From contig NZ_JAMTCS010000003.1 in assembly GCF_024171955.1 (NCBI RefSeq), forward strand, positions 186,001-250,000: a stretch of DNA of 64,000 nt. The letters are read 5' to 3'. The translations under genes and the position numbers were made by a program. Shown here one piece after another: positions 55,921 through 64,000 of this stretch (position 1 is its first letter; every line of letters starts with the position of its first letter). This DNA comes from Promicromonospora thailandica (lineage in GTDB: Bacteria > Actinomycetota > Actinomycetes > Actinomycetales > Cellulomonadaceae). Under the pieces are notes generated by a model. That model made no database searches. It saw only the letters and a program-made list of their open reading frames with translations, and was not told the origin of the DNA.

Positions 55921-57084
55921 TCAGGCCCCGGCGCGCACCCCGTCGGCGAACGGGCCCGTGCCGGCGAAGGCGTACGCGGCGAACCGCTCGCCGATGATCC
56001 GGTGGGTGGCGGTGTCGGGGTGCAGGCCGTCGGGCAGGGGGTGCTCGGCGGCGTCGTCCGCGCCGTACAGGGTGGTGCCGTCCAGGTAGTGGAGGTTCGG
56101 GTCGTCCCGCCCCGCCACGACGGCGGCCAGCGCGTCGCGGACCACGCGCAGCGTGAGCTTGCCCTGCTGCACCTCCTCGGGGCGGCCCGTGGCGACGAAC
56201 CGCACCTGGTCGGTGCCGAGGCTGTCCGGGTCGACGGCACCCGGCCCGGGCGTGTCCTCGTGGATGCCCGCGAAGATCGGCGAGGCGAGCACGAGCGGCG
56301 TGGTCGGGTGCCCGTCGCGGATGGTGTCGAGGAACCCGTGCACCGCCGGCACGAAGGTGCGCAGCCGCATGCCGTCCAGGTTCACGACGTTGATGCCGAG
56401 CTTGACGCTGATCAGGTCGGCGGGCAGGTCGCGGATCGTGCGCGCCAGGAACGGGTCCACCAGCGCGCTGCCCCCGAAGCCGAGGTTGCGCAGGTCGGCG
56501 CCGCCGAGCCGGGCGGCCACGGCGGGCCAGATCCGGGTGGGGGAGGTCGCGTTGGACCCGTGGCTGATGGAGCTGCCGTGGTGCACCCACACGGGCCCGG
56601 CCGGCTCGGCGGGTGCGACGGGTGCGTCGGTGCGCAGCTCGACGAGCTCGACCGACTCGTTGTGCGGCAGCCAGACCTCGACGAGCTTGTCGCCCTCGCG
56701 CAGCCCGGTGAAGGTCGTGGTGCACGCGGGTCCGGGCCGCAGCTCGGTGCTGCCCGTGCCGAGGTCGGTCTCGATCACGTCGCCGCCGTCGAGCGGCTCG
56801 CTCGCGACCGGCTCGCCGTCGACCACCAGGTCGACGGCGCCGCGCGGGCGGTCCGCGCCCCGGTAGACGAGCCGCGTCGGGTGGGACACGAGCGTGACGG
56901 TGCGCGCCGTCGTCCGCAGCCGCAGGCGCACGCCCGACGGCTGTGCCTCCATCATCAGCAGCTGCGGGTCGGGGAACCGGGTGCGGACCCAGGCCGGGAG
57001 CCGGTGCGGGCGCAGGCCGCGGGGCGTGCGCTCCAGCTCGGCGGCGCCGTGCACGAGCGCGGGCGTGAGGGCGGTGGTGATCAT
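55921..57084 (-). CDS. SGNH/GDSL-family hydrolase
   Basis: A 387-residue cytoplasmic hydrolase. An N-terminal beta-rich domain (to about residue 160, jelly-roll-like) precedes the SGNH domain: block I HHGSSISHGSNA with the nucleophile Ser, block II NLGFGGSALVDPF (Gly), block III KLGINVVNLDG (Asn) and block V LPDGLHPDTATH (Asp and His). The architecture matches two-domain carbohydrate esterase or acyl-esterase-like proteins. No signal peptide. The ATG overlaps the stop of the upstream TetR gene by four bases, so regulator and enzyme are co-translated and under one control. Confidence 0.87.
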   Translation of the reverse strand: MITTALTPALVHGAAELERTPRGLRPHRLPAWVRTRFPDPQLLMMEAQPSGVRLRLRTTARTVTLVSHPTRLVYRGADRPRGAVDLVVDGEPVASEPLDGGDVIETDLGTGSTELRPGPACTTTFTGLREGDKLVEVWLPHNESVELVELRTDAPVAPAEPAGPVWVHHGSSISHGSNATSPTRIWPAVAARLGGADLRNLGFGGSALVDPFLARTIRDLPADLISVKLGINVVNLDGMRLRTFVPAVHGFLDTIRDGHPTTPLVLASPIFAGIHEDTPGPGAVDPDSLGTDQVRFVATGRPEEVQQGKLTLRVVRDALAAVVAGRDDPNLHYLDGTTLYGADDAAEHPLPDGLHPDTATHRIIGERFAAYAFAGTGPFADGVRAGA

Positions 57085-57728
57085 GGTGCGGTGCTTCCTG
57101 TCTCGGGTGCTGTGCCGGGTCCTGTGCCGGGTGCCGTGCCAGGTCTCGTGGCGGGTGCCGACGCCGCGGGCCACCCCCGCAGCAGGCTGTCGAGCGCGTC
57201 GACGGCGCGGTCCCACGACACGTCGGTGCCCGGCTCGCGGTGGTCGAAGCTGCCGACGCGCTCCAGCGTGAGGTAGCCGTTGATGGTGGCGCCGAGCAGG
57301 CGCGTGGCGTGCACCCGCTCGTCCGGCGGGAGGTCGTAGCCGCGCAGCACGGCGTCGGTCAGCTCGACGAGGGTGCGGGCGGCGTCGGAGGCCGCGACGT
57401 CGGGTCCGGTGCGGCGCTGCAGGGCCTGCCAGCGTCCGGGGGCGTCCTGCGCGAAGGCGCGGTGCGCCTGGAGCAGGCCCGCGAGGGCGGCGCGTCCGGA
57501 GCGGCCGGCGACGGCGCGGGCCACGCGGGCCGTGAGGTCGGCGAGGGCGACCGTGCTGACGCCGTCCAGCAGGGCGGCGTGGTCCCGGACGTGGAAGTAG
57601 AGGCTGGGGGTCCGCACGCCCAGCCGGCGGGCCACCGCGGAGAGCGTGACGGCGTCCAGGCCGCTCTCGTCGGCCAGGGCCGTCGCCTCGGCGACGACGG
57701 TGCTCGGGTTCAGGGGAGCGCGCGACAC
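57081..57728 (-). CDS. TetR-family regulator of the SGNH hydrolase
   Basis: A 215-residue regulator of the TetR_C_13/WHG-like type. HTH: VVAEATALADESGLDAVTLS, AVARRLGVRTPSLYFHVRDH, AALLDGVSTVALADLTARV. The last 30 residues are a Pro/Gly/Thr repeat (PGTAPGTGPGTAPETGS) encoded by a tandem DNA repeat. The GTG is six bases after TAGGCT (minus strand, 57735-57740). It is transcribed with, not divergently from, its presumed target, the SGNH hydrolase. Confidence 0.88.
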   Translation of the reverse strand: MSRAPLNPSTVVAEATALADESGLDAVTLSAVARRLGVRTPSLYFHVRDHAALLDGVSTVALADLTARVARAVAGRSGRAALAGLLQAHRAFAQDAPGRWQALQRRTGPDVAASDAARTLVELTDAVLRGYDLPPDERVHATRLLGATINGYLTLERVGSFDHREPGTDVSWDRAVDALDSLLRGWPAASAPATRPGTAPGTGPGTAPETGSTAP

Positions 57729-57816: not shown

Positions 57817-58158
57817 TCAGCGCCAGTCCTCGTCGATCGGCAGCACGCTGAAGATGTCCCGGCTGGGCTCGCGGTGGATGGGCGGGGCGTCGTCGAGCCA
57901 CCGGCGCACGGCCGCCCGCGCGATCAGCTCGTCGGTGGTGATGCCGGTCTCGCCGAAGCGGCCGTCGACCCAGGGGGTCCAGGACCACAGGTGCACCAGC
58001 TCGTCGCCCAGGTCCTCCATCATGAGGCGGTGGCTGTCGCTGGCCACGAGCATCGCTCCGACGAAGCGGTCGTAGTTGTCGACCGTGACCAGGTCCACCA
58101 GGCCGGAGTCGATCTGTTCGGCTGCGGCGGTGCGCAGGATCTCCTTGGCGGATGGCAT
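57817..58158 (-). CDS. Small soluble protein of unknown function at the end of the importer operon
   Basis: A 113-residue protein starting MPSAKEILRTAAAEQIDSGL. Features are an acidic helix-rich first half (VTVDNYDRFVGAMLVASDSH), tryptophans in LVHLWSWTPWVDGRFG and RRWLDDAPP, and an acidic end SVLPIDEDWR. No signal, TM or known motif; I do not recognise the family. ATG 58158 has the ribosome-binding site GAGGAGTGCCC. An in-frame ATG at 58209, overlapping the permease stop by four bases, would add 17 residues. Its place after the permease genes ties it to the importer's substrate, maybe as an enzyme or binding factor. Confidence 0.7.
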   Translation of the reverse strand: MPSAKEILRTAAAEQIDSGLVDLVTVDNYDRFVGAMLVASDSHRLMMEDLGDELVHLWSWTPWVDGRFGETGITTDELIARAAVRRWLDDAPPIHREPSRDIFSVLPIDEDWR

Positions 58159-58205
58159 GGGCACTCCTCGGTGGTAGGTGTGTGCGGACGGACTCTGCGG
58201 CGCGG

Positions 58206-59105
58206 TCATACGGCGATCCCCCGGGAGACGTAGCCGTCGATGAAGGTGCGCTGCATCATCAGGAAGAGCACGACGACGGGCAGTGCCATGAGCAGCCCGG
58301 CCGCGCTGACCAGGGACCAGTCGGTGGTGAATCCCTGCTGGAACGAGTAGAGCGAGAGGGCGACGGGCTGCAGGTCGCGGTCCTGGATGAAGGTGACCGC
58401 GAGCATGAACTCGTTGTAGGCCTGCAGCCCCGCCACGAGGGCCGCGGTCAGGACCGCGGGGCGGACCATGGGCAGCACGATGCGGGTGAACACGCCCAGC
58501 TCGCCGGCGCCGTCGAGCCGGGCGGCCTCCTCGTACTCGCGGGGCATGCCGACGAGGAACGCGCGGACCAGCAGCGTGGCGAAGGGGCTGTAGACGGCCC
58601 AGTAGATGATCACGAGGCCGATGGGCTGGTTGTACAGGCCCAGGAAGCTCCACCAGCTCACGAGCGGCACCAGGAAGAGCTGGATGGGCAGCGAGGAGGA
58701 CACGAGCAGCCACAGGATCCACGCGCCACCGCCCGGCAGGCCGAGCCGGGTCATGGCGTAGGCCGCGGTGGTGGCGATGACGGCCACACCGGCGGCCGTG
58801 GCCAGGGCGATGAGCGAGCTGTTCAGCAGCGCGCCGCCCATGTGGGCCCGCTCCCAGGCCCCGGCGAAGTTGCTCCAGCTCCAGCTCTGCGGCGGACCCA
58901 GCGGGTTGGTGTCGATCTCGCGGGACGACTTGAGCGAGTTGGCGGCGAGCACGAGCAGCGGGCCGAGCGCGTACACGGCCAGCAGCCCGAGCACGATCCA
59001 GGTGACCGGCTGGGCGCGCCGCCGTCCGGCCACGGGGCGGGCGGGCCGCAGGGCGCTCGGGCGCGGGGCGCTGGGCCGCAGGATGCTCGTCCGGGGGGCG
59101 CTCAT
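58206..59105 (-). CDS. Sugar-type ABC transporter permease, MalG type (ADP-ribosylhydrolase locus)
   Basis: A 299-residue inner-membrane permease. The N-terminus has a repeated RPSAPRPSALRPARP stretch, then TM helices starting WIVLGLLAVYALGPLLVLAA. The EAA loop is YEEAARLDGAGELGVFTRIV with LPMVRPAVLTAALVAG following, and SYNEF-type LQAYNEFMLAVTF is present. ATG 59105 shares a base with the stop of the partner permease (TGATG), so translation is coupled. Last transporter gene before the small unknown protein. Energy must come from an ATPase encoded elsewhere. Confidence 0.92.
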   Translation of the reverse strand: MSAPRTSILRPSAPRPSALRPARPVAGRRRAQPVTWIVLGLLAVYALGPLLVLAANSLKSSREIDTNPLGPPQSWSWSNFAGAWERAHMGGALLNSSLIALATAAGVAVIATTAAYAMTRLGLPGGGAWILWLLVSSSLPIQLFLVPLVSWWSFLGLYNQPIGLVIIYWAVYSPFATLLVRAFLVGMPREYEEAARLDGAGELGVFTRIVLPMVRPAVLTAALVAGLQAYNEFMLAVTFIQDRDLQPVALSLYSFQQGFTTDWSLVSAAGLLMALPVVVLFLMMQRTFIDGYVSRGIAV

Positions 59106-60082
59106 CAGACGTCCCACCGGAGTCGGCGGCGCAGGGCGAGGTAGCCCAGCACCGTGGCGGCGCTGATGACGGACAGCAGCATGGCGACCGCGGACGCGTA
59201 CCCGTGGCGCTGGTTCTGGAAGGCCTCGCGGTACAGCACGGTGCTGAGCACGTCGGTCGAGCCGGCCGGCCCGCCCTGGGTGAGCACGTAGACGTAGTCG
59301 AAGACCAGGAACGACCAGATGATCGTCATCAGCCCGAGGAAGACGAGCGTGGGGCGGATCATCGGCAGCGTGATGTGCCAGAACTCGCGCACGGGTCCGG
59401 CGCCGTCGAGCCGCACCGCCTCGTACAGGGCCGGGTCCACGGACTGCATCGACGCCAGGAAGATCACCAGCAGGAAGCCCCACCACTGCCAGGTGTTCAC
59501 GAAGGCGACCGAGCCGAGCGCGAGCGACGGGTTGCCGAGGAAGTTCACGTCCGCCAGAGGGTCGAGGAACGGCAGGCCGAGCGTCGACAGAGCGGCGGCG
59601 ACGCCGCCGTCCGGGTCCAGGAGCTGGCGCCAGACGGCCGCGGAGACCACGGTGGCCAGCACGTAGGGCACGAAGTACAGGACGCGGAAGAACGCCTGGT
59701 TGCGGCGCAGCCGGGACAGCAGGAACGCGCCGACCAGGCCCATCGTCATCGGGACGACGAGGAAGAACAGGGTCCACAGGACGTTGTGCACCAGGGCGGT
59801 GCCCACGGCGTCCGACCGCAGCATCTCGGCGTAGTTCGCCAGGCCCACGAAGCCGGGGGCGTTGAGCCCGTCCCAGTCGGTGAAGGAGTAGTAGACGGAC
59901 GCGAGGCCCGGTCCGGTGACGACGAGGAGGTTGACCACCAGGAGCGGCGTGACGAAGACCCAGGCCAGGAGCCGGCGCAGCCGCCTGGCCCCCAGCGGCC
60001 GGCCCCGGAGGGCCGGCCGCGGTCCGCGACGCACCGGGGCCCCCGCCAGCGAGGCCCCGGTGGTCGCCGTCTCGGTGGTCAC
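59105..60082 (-). CDS. Sugar-type ABC transporter permease, MalF type (ADP-ribosylhydrolase locus)
   Basis: A 325-residue permease with an Arg/Pro-rich cytoplasmic start and six TM helices beginning LAWVFVTPLLVVNLLVVTGP. The EAA loop is YEAVRLDGAGPVREFWHITL with PMIRPTLVFLG after it. YVLTQGGPAGSTDVLSTVLY is a family block. GTG 60082 lies three bases after the binding-protein stop. Together with the MalG-type permease it makes a carbohydrate uptake (CUT1-type) channel. Confidence 0.92.
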   Translation of the reverse strand: MTTETATTGASLAGAPVRRGPRPALRGRPLGARRLRRLLAWVFVTPLLVVNLLVVTGPGLASVYYSFTDWDGLNAPGFVGLANYAEMLRSDAVGTALVHNVLWTLFFLVVPMTMGLVGAFLLSRLRRNQAFFRVLYFVPYVLATVVSAAVWRQLLDPDGGVAAALSTLGLPFLDPLADVNFLGNPSLALGSVAFVNTWQWWGFLLVIFLASMQSVDPALYEAVRLDGAGPVREFWHITLPMIRPTLVFLGLMTIIWSFLVFDYVYVLTQGGPAGSTDVLSTVLYREAFQNQRHGYASAVAMLLSVISAATVLGYLALRRRLRWDV

Positions 60083-60085
60083 TGG

Positions 60086-61435
60086 TCAGCCTTCGCTCTG
60101 GGGGGAGAAGGGGACCAGGGTGGTGCCGGCGTCGAACTCCTTGTCGAAGGTGTCCTGCATGCCGGCCAGGTACTCCTGCGCGGTGCTGTCACCGGTCACC
60201 ACCTTGTCGAACTCGGTGATGAGGTAGGAGTCCGTCTTCGGGGGGAAGAAGGTCCAGGTCGCGTAGCCGACGTTGGTCGTCTCCGGGATCTGGCTGTAGA
60301 GGTCCACGGTGCGCTCGTCGACCTCGTCGGGGAACTGGTCGGCGCTCATCTGCAGAGGCGGGGGGTTCTCCCCGGTGCGGGCCGTGTACTCCAGGGCCCG
60401 GTCGACGTCGCCGGCCACGTAGTCGAGGAACGCCGCCGCGGCGTCCGGGTCCTCGGCGTCGGCGCTGACCGAGAGCTGCGTGCCGATCGCGAGGGGGAAC
60501 ACGCCCGGCTCGACGTCGTCGCTCAGCGACGGCAGGGGCGCCCACGCCCACTGCTCCGGGTCCTCGAACACCTCGGTGAGCGAGTTGAACGACCACGTGC
60601 CGCTCAGGTACATCGCGGTGGTGCCGTTCGCCAGGCCGGTCACGTTCGCCGTGTCGTCCGTGGTGAAGTACGACTCGGCGCCGCCGGCCAGCCAGCCCTT
60701 GTCGATCCAGCTCTCGACGAGCTCGATCGCCGCCACGAACTCCGGGTCGGTGAACTCCGCCTCGCCGGTCAGCACGTCGTGGATCTTCTCGGGGCCGACG
60801 GCGGCGTTGAACACCGCCGTGATCAGCCACTCGCTCATGCCCTGGTAGCCGGCGTTGCCGCCGCCCAGGGGCACCATCCCGGCGTCGTCGGCCTCCTGGG
60901 CGACCTGCTCGAACTCCTCGAGCGTGGTGGGCGGGGTCCAGCCGTGCTCCTCGAACACCGCGGCGTTGTAGTACAGCACCATCGAGCCGTAGCTGGCCGG
61001 CACCGAGCGCATGGAGCCGTCGATGGTGCTCAGCTCGTAGGCCCAGGGCAGGAACGCGTCCTGCCACCCGTACTCCTCGGCGTACCCGCCGAGGTCGACC
61101 GTCCGGTCCGCGCGGGCGAAGTCGGACGCCGCGGACGGCCCGTCGGCGTACACGATGTCGGGCGACTCGCCGGCGGCGACCGCGGTGTCGGTGAGCTGGC
61201 CGAGCGTCGTCAGCTCCTTGACCTCCATGTCGACCTGGGTGTCGTTCTCGGCGTTGAACCCGTCGACGAAGATCTCCTGGAACGCCTCCTCCGTGGTGGG
61301 CGCGTAGAACGCGCCCCAGTAGGTGACCGTCCCGCCGGCGTCGTCGCTGCCGCCGCTGCTCACGCAGCCGGCCAGGGCGACCGAGGCCGCGGCGACGAGG
61401 CCGAGGGGTACCAGTGCACGCTTGGTGATTCTCAC
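60086..61435 (-). CDS. Sugar-type ABC transporter substrate-binding lipoprotein (ADP-ribosylhydrolase locus)
   Basis: A 449-residue family 1 extracellular binding protein. Lipobox AGC (Cys24). Blocks: TVTYWGAFYAPTTEEAFQEI, DIVYADGPSAASDFARADRT, RSVPASYGSMVLYYNAAVFE, TTLEEFEQVAQEADDAGMVP, LANGTTAMYLSGTWSFNSL and EYTARTGENPPPLQMSADQF. Many Trp, Tyr and acidic residues in the binding lobes agree with a sugar-containing ligand, which could include a nucleoside-like group. GTG start. First structural gene after the LacI gene; the 91-bp gap between them contains repeated GGTGCTCGGGGTGCTC-like sequence. Confidence 0.9.
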   Translation of the reverse strand: MRITKRALVPLGLVAAASVALAGCVSSGGSDDAGGTVTYWGAFYAPTTEEAFQEIFVDGFNAENDTQVDMEVKELTTLGQLTDTAVAAGESPDIVYADGPSAASDFARADRTVDLGGYAEEYGWQDAFLPWAYELSTIDGSMRSVPASYGSMVLYYNAAVFEEHGWTPPTTLEEFEQVAQEADDAGMVPLGGGNAGYQGMSEWLITAVFNAAVGPEKIHDVLTGEAEFTDPEFVAAIELVESWIDKGWLAGGAESYFTTDDTANVTGLANGTTAMYLSGTWSFNSLTEVFEDPEQWAWAPLPSLSDDVEPGVFPLAIGTQLSVSADAEDPDAAAAFLDYVAGDVDRALEYTARTGENPPPLQMSADQFPDEVDERTVDLYSQIPETTNVGYATWTFFPPKTDSYLITEFDKVVTGDSTAQEYLAGMQDTFDKEFDAGTTLVPFSPQSEG

Positions 61436-61526
61436 TGTGGGTGTCTCTCTCGCGAGGGGGATGGTGCCGGGCGGGAGGTGCAGGGGGGTGCTCGGGGGTG
61501 CTCGGGGTGCTCGAGGGGTGCGGGGT

Positions 61527-62513
61527 TCAGGTCGAGTCGCGGACGACGAGCCGGTTGGACAGCGCCACGCCGCGGGTGATGTCGGTGACGTGACCGTCGA
61601 GGCGTTCCAGGAGGAGGCGGGCGCAGGCCCGCCCGATCTCCCGGGCGGGGTTCATGACGGTGGTCAGCGGCGGGTCGACGAGCGACGCCGCCTCGATGTC
61701 GTCGTAGCCGGTCAGGGCGAGGTCCTCGGGGACCCGCAGCCCCATGGACCGCGTCACGTCCAGCACGCCGAACGCGATCAGGTCGTTGGCCGCCACGATC
61801 GCGTCGGGACGGTCGTCGCGGTCCAGCAGGGCCGTCGCGCCGTCCCGCCCGCCCTGACGGGTGTACCGGGTGCACACCACGTCGTCGTCCCGGAGCGGCA
61901 GCCCGGCGGCGCGCAGCGCCTCCTGGTACCCCTCCAGGCGCTGCCGGGTGGGGGTCACGCCCTCGTCGCCGCCGAGGAACGCGATACGGCGGCGGCCCCG
62001 CTCGATCAGGTGCTCGGTGGCCTTGCGGGCGCCGTCGACGTCGTTGGTGTGCACGAAGTCGCCGCCGCCGGGAGGGGCCTGACCGAGGGTGACGAACGGG
62101 ATTCCGGCGTCGTGCACCTCTGCGAGCCCGGCCGGGGGGAGGCCGAACGGGGCGGCGACCATGGCGTCCACGCGGCGCGTCAGGAGCCGGTGGATGGCGC
62201 TCGCCGAGCGGTCGAGACCGCTCGCGTCGGTGACGGTCAGCAGGATGTCGCGGGGGACGAGCACGTCCTGCATGCCGGCGGCGACCAGGGGGTAGAACGG
62301 GTTCTCCAGGGTCGGCACGATCAGGGCGACCGTGCCGGTGCGACCGCCACGCAGCTGCGCGGCGCCGGGGTGGGCGCGGTAGCCGAGGCGCGTGATCGCG
62401 GCCTCCACGCGGGCCCGCGTGGCTGCCGAGACGGGCCGGTTCCCGGTGACGACCTGCGAGACCGTGGACATGCTGACGCCCGCGGCCTCCGCCACCTCAC
62501 GAATCCCGACCAT
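61527..62513 (-). CDS. LacI-family repressor of the ADP-ribosylhydrolase/importer locus
   Basis: A 328-residue regulator. HTH: GIREVAEAAGVSMSTVSQVV, hinge SAATRARVEAAITRLGYRAH. The sensor domain has ALIVPTLENPFYPLVAAGMQ, VDAMVAAPFGLPPAGLAEVH, DFVHTNDVDGARKATEHLIE and LTGYDDIEAASLVDPPLTTV. ATG 62513 is preceded by GAGGAGCGC, which selects it over a start 27 bases upstream. It is first on its strand, divergent from the ADP-ribosylglycohydrolase genes, and the intergenic region carries LacI-type palindromes, so it should control both arms. Confidence 0.92.
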   Translation of the reverse strand: MVGIREVAEAAGVSMSTVSQVVTGNRPVSAATRARVEAAITRLGYRAHPGAAQLRGGRTGTVALIVPTLENPFYPLVAAGMQDVLVPRDILLTVTDASGLDRSASAIHRLLTRRVDAMVAAPFGLPPAGLAEVHDAGIPFVTLGQAPPGGGDFVHTNDVDGARKATEHLIERGRRRIAFLGGDEGVTPTRQRLEGYQEALRAAGLPLRDDDVVCTRYTRQGGRDGATALLDRDDRPDAIVAANDLIAFGVLDVTRSMGLRVPEDLALTGYDDIEAASLVDPPLTTVMNPAREIGRACARLLLERLDGHVTDITRGVALSNRLVVRDST

Positions 62514-62550
62514 GCGCTCCTCGCTCCTCCGTCGTCGCAAACCCTACGCG

Positions 62551-62578
62551 CAAAAGGTTTTGGAGTAGCATGCTCCAA
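62551..62578. promoter_or_regulatory. Operator-like palindromes near the LacI start
   Basis: CAAAA-GG-TTTTG (62551-62562) overlaps TTGGAG-N7-CTCCAA (62560-62578). Both lie in the leader/promoter of the LacI gene (minus strand) and could be its autoregulatory site. Confidence 0.55.
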
Positions 62579-62661
62579 GTTCACCCTGTGAGGCAAGACA
62601 CAAGCGCAAAGACGTGCGCAAACATAGTGAGGCCACGCATGCTCTGCGTGCTGGTTCCATG

Positions 62662-62681
62662 CAAAACGTTACGTTTTCGCG
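62662..62681. promoter_or_regulatory. LacI-type operator before the ADP-ribosylglycohydrolase genes
   Basis: GCAAAACG-TTA-CGTTTTCGC: inner arms AAAACG/CGTTTT are perfect, and the outer GC pairs follow the LacI-family pattern. It lies 41 bp before the first hydrolase start and 148 bp from the LacI start. Confidence 0.72.
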
Positions 62682-62721
62682 GCGCAAGCGCTGCGAGGCG
62701 GGAACCGAGATACGGAGGAGC

Positions 62722-63729
62722 ATGAACAACGACCGTGCGCGCGGTGCGCTGCTCGGCCTGGCGATCGGCGACGCCATGGGCGCACCGACCGAGGGCATGA
62801 CGCTCCACGCGATCCGGGAGCGGTGGGGCCGGGTGCGCGGTTTCGTGGACCCCGAGGCGGCCGGCACCGACGACACGGAGTACGCCGTGCTGTGCGCCCG
62901 CGGCGTGCTGCGCGGGGGAGCGGACCTCACCTCCCGGGTCGTCGCCGACACCTGGCTGGAGGCCCTGCGCGCGCAGCGGACCGGGTTCAACCGGGCCGGC
63001 TTCAGCGAGATGATCGCCCTCGCCAACCTGCACTCCGGCATGGAGCCGCCCGCCAGCGGGCAGCGCAACGCCGAGACCTGGAGCGACGGCGCCGCCATGC
63101 GCGTCGCCCCCATCGGTGTCTTCGCCGCGGGCGACCCCGGGCTCGCCGCCCGGATGGCGCGCGCCGACGCCGAGGTCAGCCACTCGCGCGACGGCGTCTG
63201 GTGCGCCCAGGCGATCGCCGCCGGGGTCGCCGTCGCCATGGTGTCGGACGACGTCGAACCCGTCCTCGACGCCATGCTCGCCGCCCTGCCGGCCGACTCC
63301 TGGTCGGCCCGCACGGCCCGCCGGGCGCTCGACATCGCGGCCCGGGCCGGCACGCCCGAGCAGGCCGAGGAGGACCTCTTCGAGGCCATCCCCCTGCGGC
63401 ACTACATGTGGGCCGACGTCGCCCCCGAGGCCGTCGCGCTGGCCATCGGCCTGCTCCGGGCCACCGACGGCACGCCCGCCGTCATCGAGTCCGGGGTCAA
63501 CATCGGCCGCGACTCCGACACCATCGCCGCGATGGCCGGCGCCGTCGCCGGGGCCCTGCACGGCGTGAGCGCGTTCGACCCGGACGTCGTCGCGCAGGTG
63601 CGCACCGTGACCGGGCAGTGCATCCAGGCCACCGCGGGCACCGACCTGGTCGACCTGGCGGACGCCCTCGTCGACGAGGCCGACCGGGCCGCCGCCGTCG
63701 CACGTCCCACCGAGGAGACCCGAGCATGA
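62722..63729 (+). CDS. ADP-ribosylglycohydrolase-family protein (first of two)
   Basis: A 335-residue all-helical hydrolase of the DraG/ARH family, which cleaves N- or O-glycosidic bonds at the C1'' of ADP-ribose or related ribosides with two Mg ions. The start ARGALLGLAIGDAMGAPTEG is the family N-terminus. Metal ligands are visible as GTDDTE (Thr49, Asp50, Asp51) and IGRDSDTIA (Asp264, Asp266, Thr267). ATG 62722 is set by GGAGGAG. Its context, a LacI-controlled sugar importer instead of nitrogenase or ADP-ribosyltransferase genes, suggests a catabolic role on a small ribosylated molecule rather than on proteins (inference). Confidence 0.9.
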   Translation: MNNDRARGALLGLAIGDAMGAPTEGMTLHAIRERWGRVRGFVDPEAAGTDDTEYAVLCARGVLRGGADLTSRVVADTWLEALRAQRTGFNRAGFSEMIALANLHSGMEPPASGQRNAETWSDGAAMRVAPIGVFAAGDPGLAARMARADAEVSHSRDGVWCAQAIAAGVAVAMVSDDVEPVLDAMLAALPADSWSARTARRALDIAARAGTPEQAEEDLFEAIPLRHYMWADVAPEAVALAIGLLRATDGTPAVIESGVNIGRDSDTIAAMAGAVAGALHGVSAFDPDVVAQVRTVTGQCIQATAGTDLVDLADALVDEADRAAAVARPTEETRA

Positions 63730-64000
63730 CCGACCGCCTCGACCGCGCCGTCGGCGCCGTGCACGGCCTCGCGCTGGGCGACGCCCTCGGCGCGCCCGCC
63801 AGCGAGCACCGGACCGTCCGCGACCCCTGGGTGCGGCAGATGCTGCGCAAGGGCCCGCTGGAGCTCGACGAGTCCCGCGTGCTGCGCCCCGTGGTCCCCT
63901 TCGTGCTCTCCGCGATCGGCGCTCCCACGCTCGTGCCGACCGACGACGCCGAGACCTTCGCCGTCGCCGCGCGGGTGCTCCTGGAGGCCCCGGGCCGGGA
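63726..64000 (+). CDS. ADP-ribosylglycohydrolase-family protein (second, cut by window end)
   Basis: The first 91 codons of a second family member: RAVGAVHGLALGDALGAPAS at the start and VPTDDAETFAVAA where the first has GTDDTEYAV. The Thr/Ser after the two aspartates is Ala here, a change close to a metal ligand. The intervening segment (WVRQMLRKGPLELDESRVLR) is unlike the first copy, so this is an old paralogue, not a recent duplication. The ATG overlaps the previous stop (ATGA), implying coupled translation and possibly a heteromeric enzyme. The 3' part lies outside the window. Confidence 0.85.
   Translation, partial: MTDRLDRAVGAVHGLALGDALGAPASEHRTVRDPWVRQMLRKGPLELDESRVLRPVVPFVLSAIGAPTLVPTDDAETFAVAARVLLEAPGR

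Follow-up and report, generated by a model that had tools for sequence, protein, structure and literature searches.

A LacI/CUT1 gene module of Promicromonospora thailandica with two ADP-ribosylglycohydrolase-family genes, a candidate system for the uptake and cleavage of a ribofuranoside

Proteins of the DraG/ARH type (ARH, ADP-ribosylglycohydrolase) are usually read as enzymes that remove ADP-ribose. The known ARH enzymes depend on both metals as well as on the cis hydroxyls at 2'' and 3'' of the distal ribose; the characterized enzymes ARH1 and ARH3 select alpha-1'' bonds (PMC7050489). In Streptomyces coelicolor, ADP-ribosylation hydrolases far exceed the known transferases, as stated in two reports (PMC9411070, PMC5087735); the first of these lists SCO2028-SCO2031, four consecutive locus tags, as uncharacterised ADP-ribosylation hydrolases with homology to DraG/ARH. 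The E. coli operon yegTUV has been tied to ADP-glucose and glycogen, and the function of its genes is described as not established (PMC10819704). Here we describe a module at positions 57817-64000 of a 64,000-nucleotide stretch of DNA from the soil actinobacterium Promicromonospora thailandica (the window; G000:C3:186001-250000), in which a CUT1-type importer and a LacI-family repressor are encoded divergently from two ARH-family genes. These two genes are called ARH1 and ARH2 below; the characterized enzyme of the former name is marked as the known ARH1. This gene set was not described in the open-licence PMC papers that were searched, among which papers on staphylococcal cassettes, seen as listed, mention ADP-ribosylglycohydrolase and ribokinase.

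The yegTUV operon with its repressor GgaR (YegW) is like the module in that it places a transporter, an ARH protein and a sugar-kinase-like protein under a dedicated repressor. Comparison of ARH1 with YegU revealed 32% identity over 330 aa (E 1e-21), which is as close as ARH1 is to ARH2. In contrast to the module, with its CUT1 importer, LacI regulator and two ARH genes, the E. coli system has a predicted nucleoside symporter of the MFS type (YegT), a GntR-type repressor and a single ARH, and a kinase adjacent to ARH2 was found, of 17 complete modules, in Agreia alone, so that the module does not have a gene set of the yegTUV type. DraG, the known ARH1, ARH3 and Tri1 share with the window proteins the fold, the Pfam family and, for ARH1 of the window, the metal-site motifs; they differ in that the module has a catabolic context and ARH2 has a degenerate metal site.

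We propose that the module is a LacI regulon that imports and splits a ribofuranoside, a reading that we regard as probable by a modest measure. LacI would bind two operators between the divergent operons and repress both, and an inducer would free it. The CUT1 importer would take the compound in; an ATPase gene is absent from the module, and the ATPase is probably encoded elsewhere. The two-metal site of ARH1, which in known relatives binds the cis-diol of ribofuranose, would then cleave the glycosidic bond, with ARH2, encoded in an overlapping frame and damaged in its metal site, as a non-catalytic or reshaped partner subunit, and the released ribose would pass to a ribokinase-like kinase. 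Where they are present, two further ARH proteins (ARHa and ARHb), a kinase, a family III CoA-transferase and a CitE-like lyase may handle further bonds and the carboxylic acid part of the compound. What appears to be new here is a LacI/CUT1 catabolic regulon of known type that includes an enzyme family not expected there and what looks like a pseudo-enzyme partner.

Family scans bore out, for every gene but the small protein, the gene content given in a preliminary description of this DNA, namely a LacI repressor, a CUT1 importer with a small unknown protein on one strand and two ARH-family genes on the other. The LacI-family repressor (61527..62513, minus strand) contains the Pfam LacI (HTH) domain and the ligand domain Peripla_BP_3; its nearest NCBIfam model is RbsR (NF047341) with 212.9 bits, which is below the cut-off of 382, and by that criterion it is not an RbsR. 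The solute-binding lipoprotein of the importer (60086..61435, minus strand) matched SBP_bac_1 with 100.6 bits in Pfam. It is accompanied by a MalF/UgpA-like permease, permF (59105..60082, minus strand; BPD_transp_1, 49.0 bits), and a MalG/UgpE-like permease, permG (58206..59105, minus strand; BPD_transp_1, 60.9 bits), whose closest NCBIfam models, GlcT, UgpA and MalF for the former and GlcU, UgpE and MalG for the latter, were each under cut-off. Two BPD_transp_1 permeases together with one SBP_bac_1 protein assign the importer to the CUT1 class. On the plus strand, ARH1 (62722..63729) matched PF03747 with 183.5 bits against a cut-off of 26.2. ARH2 (63726..64000 in the window, plus strand) overlaps ARH1 by 4 nt (ATGA) and extends 736 bases beyond the window to G000:C3:250736, which is position 7737 of L005, the stretch extended past the window end; scored from L005, it matched PF03747 with 107.1 bits against the same cut-off.

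A scan of genome contigs with ARH1 gave 20 loci, 18 of which were close; two loci from Dehalococcoidia (L053 and L054; 33%), in which none of the other module genes was found, were excluded from the 18. All six core genes (permG, permF, the binding protein, LacI, ARH1 and ARH2) were present in the same order in 16 of the 18 close loci, distributed over Promicromonospora (5), Nocardiopsis (5), Agromyces (3), Agreia (1), Microbacterium (1) and Microterricola (1). The locus of P. kroppenstedtii (L040) is interrupted by 100-base assembly gaps at both ends of its piece, and Amnibacterium flavum (L051) has ARH1-ARH2 with a more distant LacI (33%) and, instead of a CUT1 importer nearby, another importer. 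The neighbours did not vary freely between genomes; free variation had been named in the preliminary description as speaking against its reading. ARH1 and ARH2 overlap by 4-11 nt, with start codons picked by script, in all 18 pairs (own and 17 others). An ARH2 query matched 13 of 198 genomes of the order. Among the matches opened (G000, G097, G172, G105, G063, G189, G013, G031 and G047), the ARH1-ARH2 pair was present only in the own genome and in G097; the other four matches were in G091, G119, G121 and G143.

A general association of ARH genes with CUT1 importers was considered and rejected. An ARH match was present in 113 other genomes of the order, and 40 of these, taken in handle order up to G095 minus those without a printed position or near a contig start, were opened at their best-scoring ARH. 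CUT1 genes adjoined that ARH in 3 of the 40 and lay at a distance of about 5 kb in another 3, as counted with few reference proteins, by which distant CUT1 genes may escape, and with a second ARH per genome left uncounted; G013 and G091, for instance, have a locus of the C4 type described below elsewhere in the genome, beyond the best-scoring ARH. Linkage to CUT1 importers belongs to particular ARH clades and not to ARH genes at large.

The LacI operators that had been proposed in the shared control region appear as candidate sites throughout the close relatives. Every LacI/ARH1 gap (18/18; own and 17 others) contains two sites resembling TGCAAAACGTTTTGCA, one by the LacI start and one by ARH1. 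In the window, these are the operator-like sequences operator 1 (CGCAAAAGGTTTTGGA; 62549-62564, plus strand) and operator 2 (TGCAAAACGTTACGTT; 62660-62675, plus strand), whose counterparts in the 18 homologous control regions matched TGCAAAACGTTTTGCA at 13 or more and at 11 or more of 16 positions, respectively. Shuffling of four of these 18 gaps, with 300 rounds for each, gave best scores of mostly 8-10, and 13 was reached in 0, 0, 1 and 1 of the 300 shuffles. Because the TGCAAAACGTTTTGCA consensus was drawn by eye from the same gaps that were scored, this comparison shows only that the sites are no effect of composition. Across the genome, the pattern TGCAAAACGTTNNGNW, derived from operator 2 itself, was matched exactly at operator 2 alone, and operator 1 was among the genome matches with 2 mismatches. 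A wider LacI regulon was not evident in the genome, where 26 matches with up to 2 mismatches compare with 21 for a reversed control; we read only two of these matches, both in the LacI/ARH1 control region, as putative sites.

The two ARH proteins differ in their metal sites. In ARH1, E24, T49, D50, D51, D264, D266 and T267 were invariant in 20/20 aligned sequences, and the TDD and GxDxDT motifs are complete. In ARH2, these motifs are incomplete: the first Asp of GxDxDT was missing in 28/28 aligned sequences, with a Glu in its place in three Agromyces sequences, and the Glu-flap position was variable (Ser, Gly, Glu, Asp or Ala). Given the ligand lost throughout ARH2 and the intact site of ARH1, the pair looks like one enzyme and a degenerate partner, and ARH2 would be a non-catalytic or reshaped partner of ARH1. 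The earlier view of two hydrolases is too simple as to ARH2. In a phylogenetic tree, ARH1 and ARH2 were sisters with support of 89/84, a result that depends on midpoint rooting, and YegU and the fourth ARH of G097 (L027) lay on long branches; the ARH of L084, discussed below, was not included in the tree or in the YegU sequence comparison.

The riboside reading is based on three neighbourhoods that point to ribosides. In Amnibacterium (L051), a nucleoside-type ABC importer of the Bmp kind (Bmp, 136.5 bits; BPD_transp_2, 133.6 bits) lies divergently to ARH1-ARH2, and the locus contains an IU_nuc_hydro protein (273.1 bits in Pfam), two further such open reading frames (ORFs) by resemblance, and amidohydrolases whose nearest models, TRZ/ATZ, were under cut-off. 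The flanks of the own locus and of the 17 others gave no match to an IU_nuc_hydro-type hydrolase. In Agreia, the last 4 nt of ARH2 are shared with a kinase gene whose nearest model is the ribokinase TIGR02152 (283.1 bits, cut-off 299.65). The third neighbourhood is the pair L084/L159 from G013 and G189. Among the loci fetched, its importer is the closest to that of the window outside the orthologues, with a binding protein 33% identical and permeases 37-39% identical; the best-scoring other binding protein of the own genome is 28% identical to that of the window. Besides the CUT1 importer, the L084/L159 operon encodes an ARH whose C-terminal extension is long, together with a ribokinase-like kinase and a nucleoside hydrolase. 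It also encodes an adenosine deaminase that passed its cut-off (464 bits, cut-off 419) and a member of the nucleoside phosphorylase superfamily.

Several observations weigh against a ribofuranoside regulon. A kinase follows ARH2 in only 1 of 17 complete modules, own included (that of Agreia), and no kinase, deaminase or nucleosidase gene was found inside the window module. The preliminary description had proposed extending the sequence to the right in search of a kinase, a phosphorylase or further enzymes; the extension past ARH2 revealed an alpha/beta hydrolase gene on the opposite strand and then an ORF without a Pfam match, with no adjoining kinase or phosphorylase. The L084 ARH and ARH1 are not orthologous (34% over a part of the former), so the L084/L159 line speaks for the ligand class of the importer more strongly than for the enzyme. 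That ARH2 acts as a partner is deduced from sequence only. The best operator score was 10 of 16 in the Amnibacterium gap and 7-8 of 16 in two four-ARH loci tested, by which the operator is confined to the window-type module. Furthermore, ARHa was absent in 7 of the 18 genomes with a window-type module, and the CoA-transferase and lyase are unexplained by a simple nucleoside. Two further points, the usual ligands of CUT1 importers and the genes of G105, are taken up below. The catabolic regulon for an imported riboside-like compound that had been suggested earlier is partly supported, by its context, and the locus is not a whole pathway.

An ordinary oligosaccharide regulon, in which the ARH proteins act as furanosidases for arabinofuranosyl, apiosyl or galactofuranosyl residues, is the alternative that survives best, and we consider it unlikely. 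Importers of the CUT1 class usually carry sugars, typically oligosaccharides, and the top PDB sequence match of the binding protein is 3vxb, a putative sugar-binding lipoprotein (E 2.5e-21), which would suit a sugar ligand. In G105, ARH-domain proteins (L029:9212-12257, L030:8305-9837) were observed near LacI and CUT1 genes, one of them overlapping a sulfatase gene, and other kinds of carbohydrate locus may also make use of ARH proteins. Against an oligosaccharide ligand stand the ribokinase-like kinases and the neighbourhoods of L051 and L084/L159, which are of the nucleoside type. Also, the six-gene module contains no glycoside hydrolase of another family, a statement about the module, as the flanks were not scanned for them.

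The own genome contains four ARH matches, two in the window module and two on contig C4. The C4 locus (L006, G000:C4:1-13500) has, by eye, the order LacI, CUT1 permease, CUT1 permease, binding protein, ARHa and ARHb, followed by a tail with a ribokinase-like kinase (ribokinase model, 260.6 bits; cut-off 299.65), an FGE-sulfatase-domain protein, a family III CoA-transferase and a CitE-like lyase, the last two families having been scanned on homologues. It shares with the window module a LacI, two CUT1 permeases, a binding protein and two ARH genes; it differs in the genes of the tail and in its ARH proteins, which fall in clades other than those of ARH1 and ARH2 by sequence. The FGE-sulfatase-domain protein (L006:3632-5713) has 693 aa, with that domain at its C-terminus only and a large N-terminal part without a Pfam match at E 0.001. 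The C4-type set was also found in G013, G047, G091, G133, G137 and G172, and in G031 without a detected kinase.

Both ARH sets are joined in several genomes. They stand together under LacI/CUT1 in G097 (L027) and in Microbacterium nymphoidis (L165), which has a window-type module in addition and whose fourth ARH comes from a weak match. In a phylum sample of 396 genomes, 10 genomes of one genus of the same class (g91), probably Streptomyces as far as nine of them are concerned, were matched, 9 of them strongly; at least one other g91 genome had no match. In all nine strong loci (L120-L128; genomes of 7.8-9.9 Mb), ARH1, ARH2, ARHa, ARHb, the CoA-transferase and the CitE-like lyase lie in a single run; 6 of the 9 also have a detected kinase, and no importer was detected beside the run. 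Among the genomes with a window-type module, 11 of 18 contain ARHa. For comparison, a count by eye among the matches listed put adjacent ARH pairs of that size in about 12 of the 198 genomes that represent the order, nine of the 12 having been opened; this contrast is inflated by kinship, because six of the eleven are Promicromonospora. Since ARHa is missing from the remaining seven, the window module works without the ARHa set, and it appears to be linked to a larger pathway yet able to stand alone. In Nocardiopsis sp. MG754419 (L045; L164:10124-12144), whose genome is without ARHa, a CaiB-CitE pair lies at a distance of about 8 kb from the module; it was rejected as linkage, as it has a regulator-like neighbour of its own.

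The four-ARH run of L120-L128 matches the four consecutive tags SCO2028-SCO2031, and in S. coelicolor it probably corresponds to the region SCO2028-SCO2033. Among named genes, SCO2028-SCO2031 are probably the nearest, as judged from the tag run and the flanking order, not from a sequence comparison. The flanking gene order of L120-L128 (glutamate synthase, lgt, trpA), read by eye, also fits. The S. coelicolor trp genes lie near SCO2038 (PMC5036795). Unlike the module as interpreted here, SCO2028-SCO2031 have been published as ADP-ribosylation hydrolases and not as catabolic genes.

These loci allow a broader and more tentative proposal, namely a hitherto unrecognised actinobacterial pathway that degrades ribosyl conjugates, whether disaccharide nucleosides, alpha-ribosides or ribosylated hydroxy acids. 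As many as four proteins of the ARH fold, of which one or more would be a pseudo-enzyme partner, would act first, followed by the ribokinase-like kinase, the CoA-transferase and the CitE-like lyase, and the window module would be its importer-linked first-cleavage arm. Such a pathway may explain SCO2028-SCO2031; if it exists, four of the eight uncharacterised S. coelicolor DraG homologues would be catabolic and not erasers of ADP-ribosylation. Should this ARH clade be shown to be catabolic, part of the hydrolase excess would be explained and annotations could be corrected, and the importer, binding protein, repressor and conserved neighbours provide a handle on the natural substrate.

A narrower alternative, which we find quite improbable, is that the substrate is a ribosyl or furanosyl hydroxy-acid conjugate from which the ARH proteins remove the sugar, leaving an acid to be activated by the CoA-transferase and split by the CitE-like lyase; the window module would be the import and first-cleavage arm of one variant. 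The run of ARH1-ARH2-ARHa-ARHb with both acid-handling genes in the nine same-class loci would fit this scheme, as would the G172 homologues (L028), in which the transferase matched CoA_transf_3 with 372.5 bits and the lyase HpcH_HpaI with 98.2 bits; the closest equivalogs of this lyase are citE and the itaconate-pathway lyase RipC, both under cut-off. It is opposed by the seven module genomes that lack ARHa, and no such conjugate has been identified.

Least probable is a reversal of ADP-ribosylation, in which ARH1 and ARH2 strip ADP-ribose from proteins, nucleic acids or an imported compound as DraG, the known ARH1 and ARH3 do: the common family, the metal-site motifs of ARH1 and the published assignment of the probable S. 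coelicolor homologues favour it, but ARH1 falls under the equivalog cut-offs of DraG (TIGR02662; 57.7 bits against 337.05) and Tri1 (NF041672; 33.1 against 490), importer genes are linked in the 18 close loci and the kinase/CoA set in the 9 same-class loci, and no activity of the purified proteins SCO2028 and SCO2030 could be detected on U-alpha-ADPr, which is a single substrate (PMC13036486). A search for DRAT (PF07357), the one ADP-ribosyltransferase family looked for, gave no match in the genome and matched no control genome either.

The final gene of the importer operon encodes a small protein of 113 aa (57817..58158, minus strand) without a Pfam, NCBIfam or PADLOC match; three proteins were compared with PADLOC at E 0.01, and no match that would suggest a defence role was found. 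Copies of the small protein were detected in 5 of the 6 other Promicromonospora loci, as against none in the remaining 12 close loci, and among the loci examined its orthologues, with identities of 65-89%, are restricted to Promicromonospora. Its pN/pS across six sequences had a mean of 0.55 and a maximum of 0.83, values that indicate no more than moderate selection. A class-level search gave a match in 2 of 394 genomes, own genome counted, and the match in G356 (42%, 69 aa) was rejected as chance, since it lies antisense within a thiolase-like ORF. On its left flank, the module is bordered by a TetR regulator (57081-57728) and a GDSL-type lipase with an SsfX3_N domain (55921-57216).

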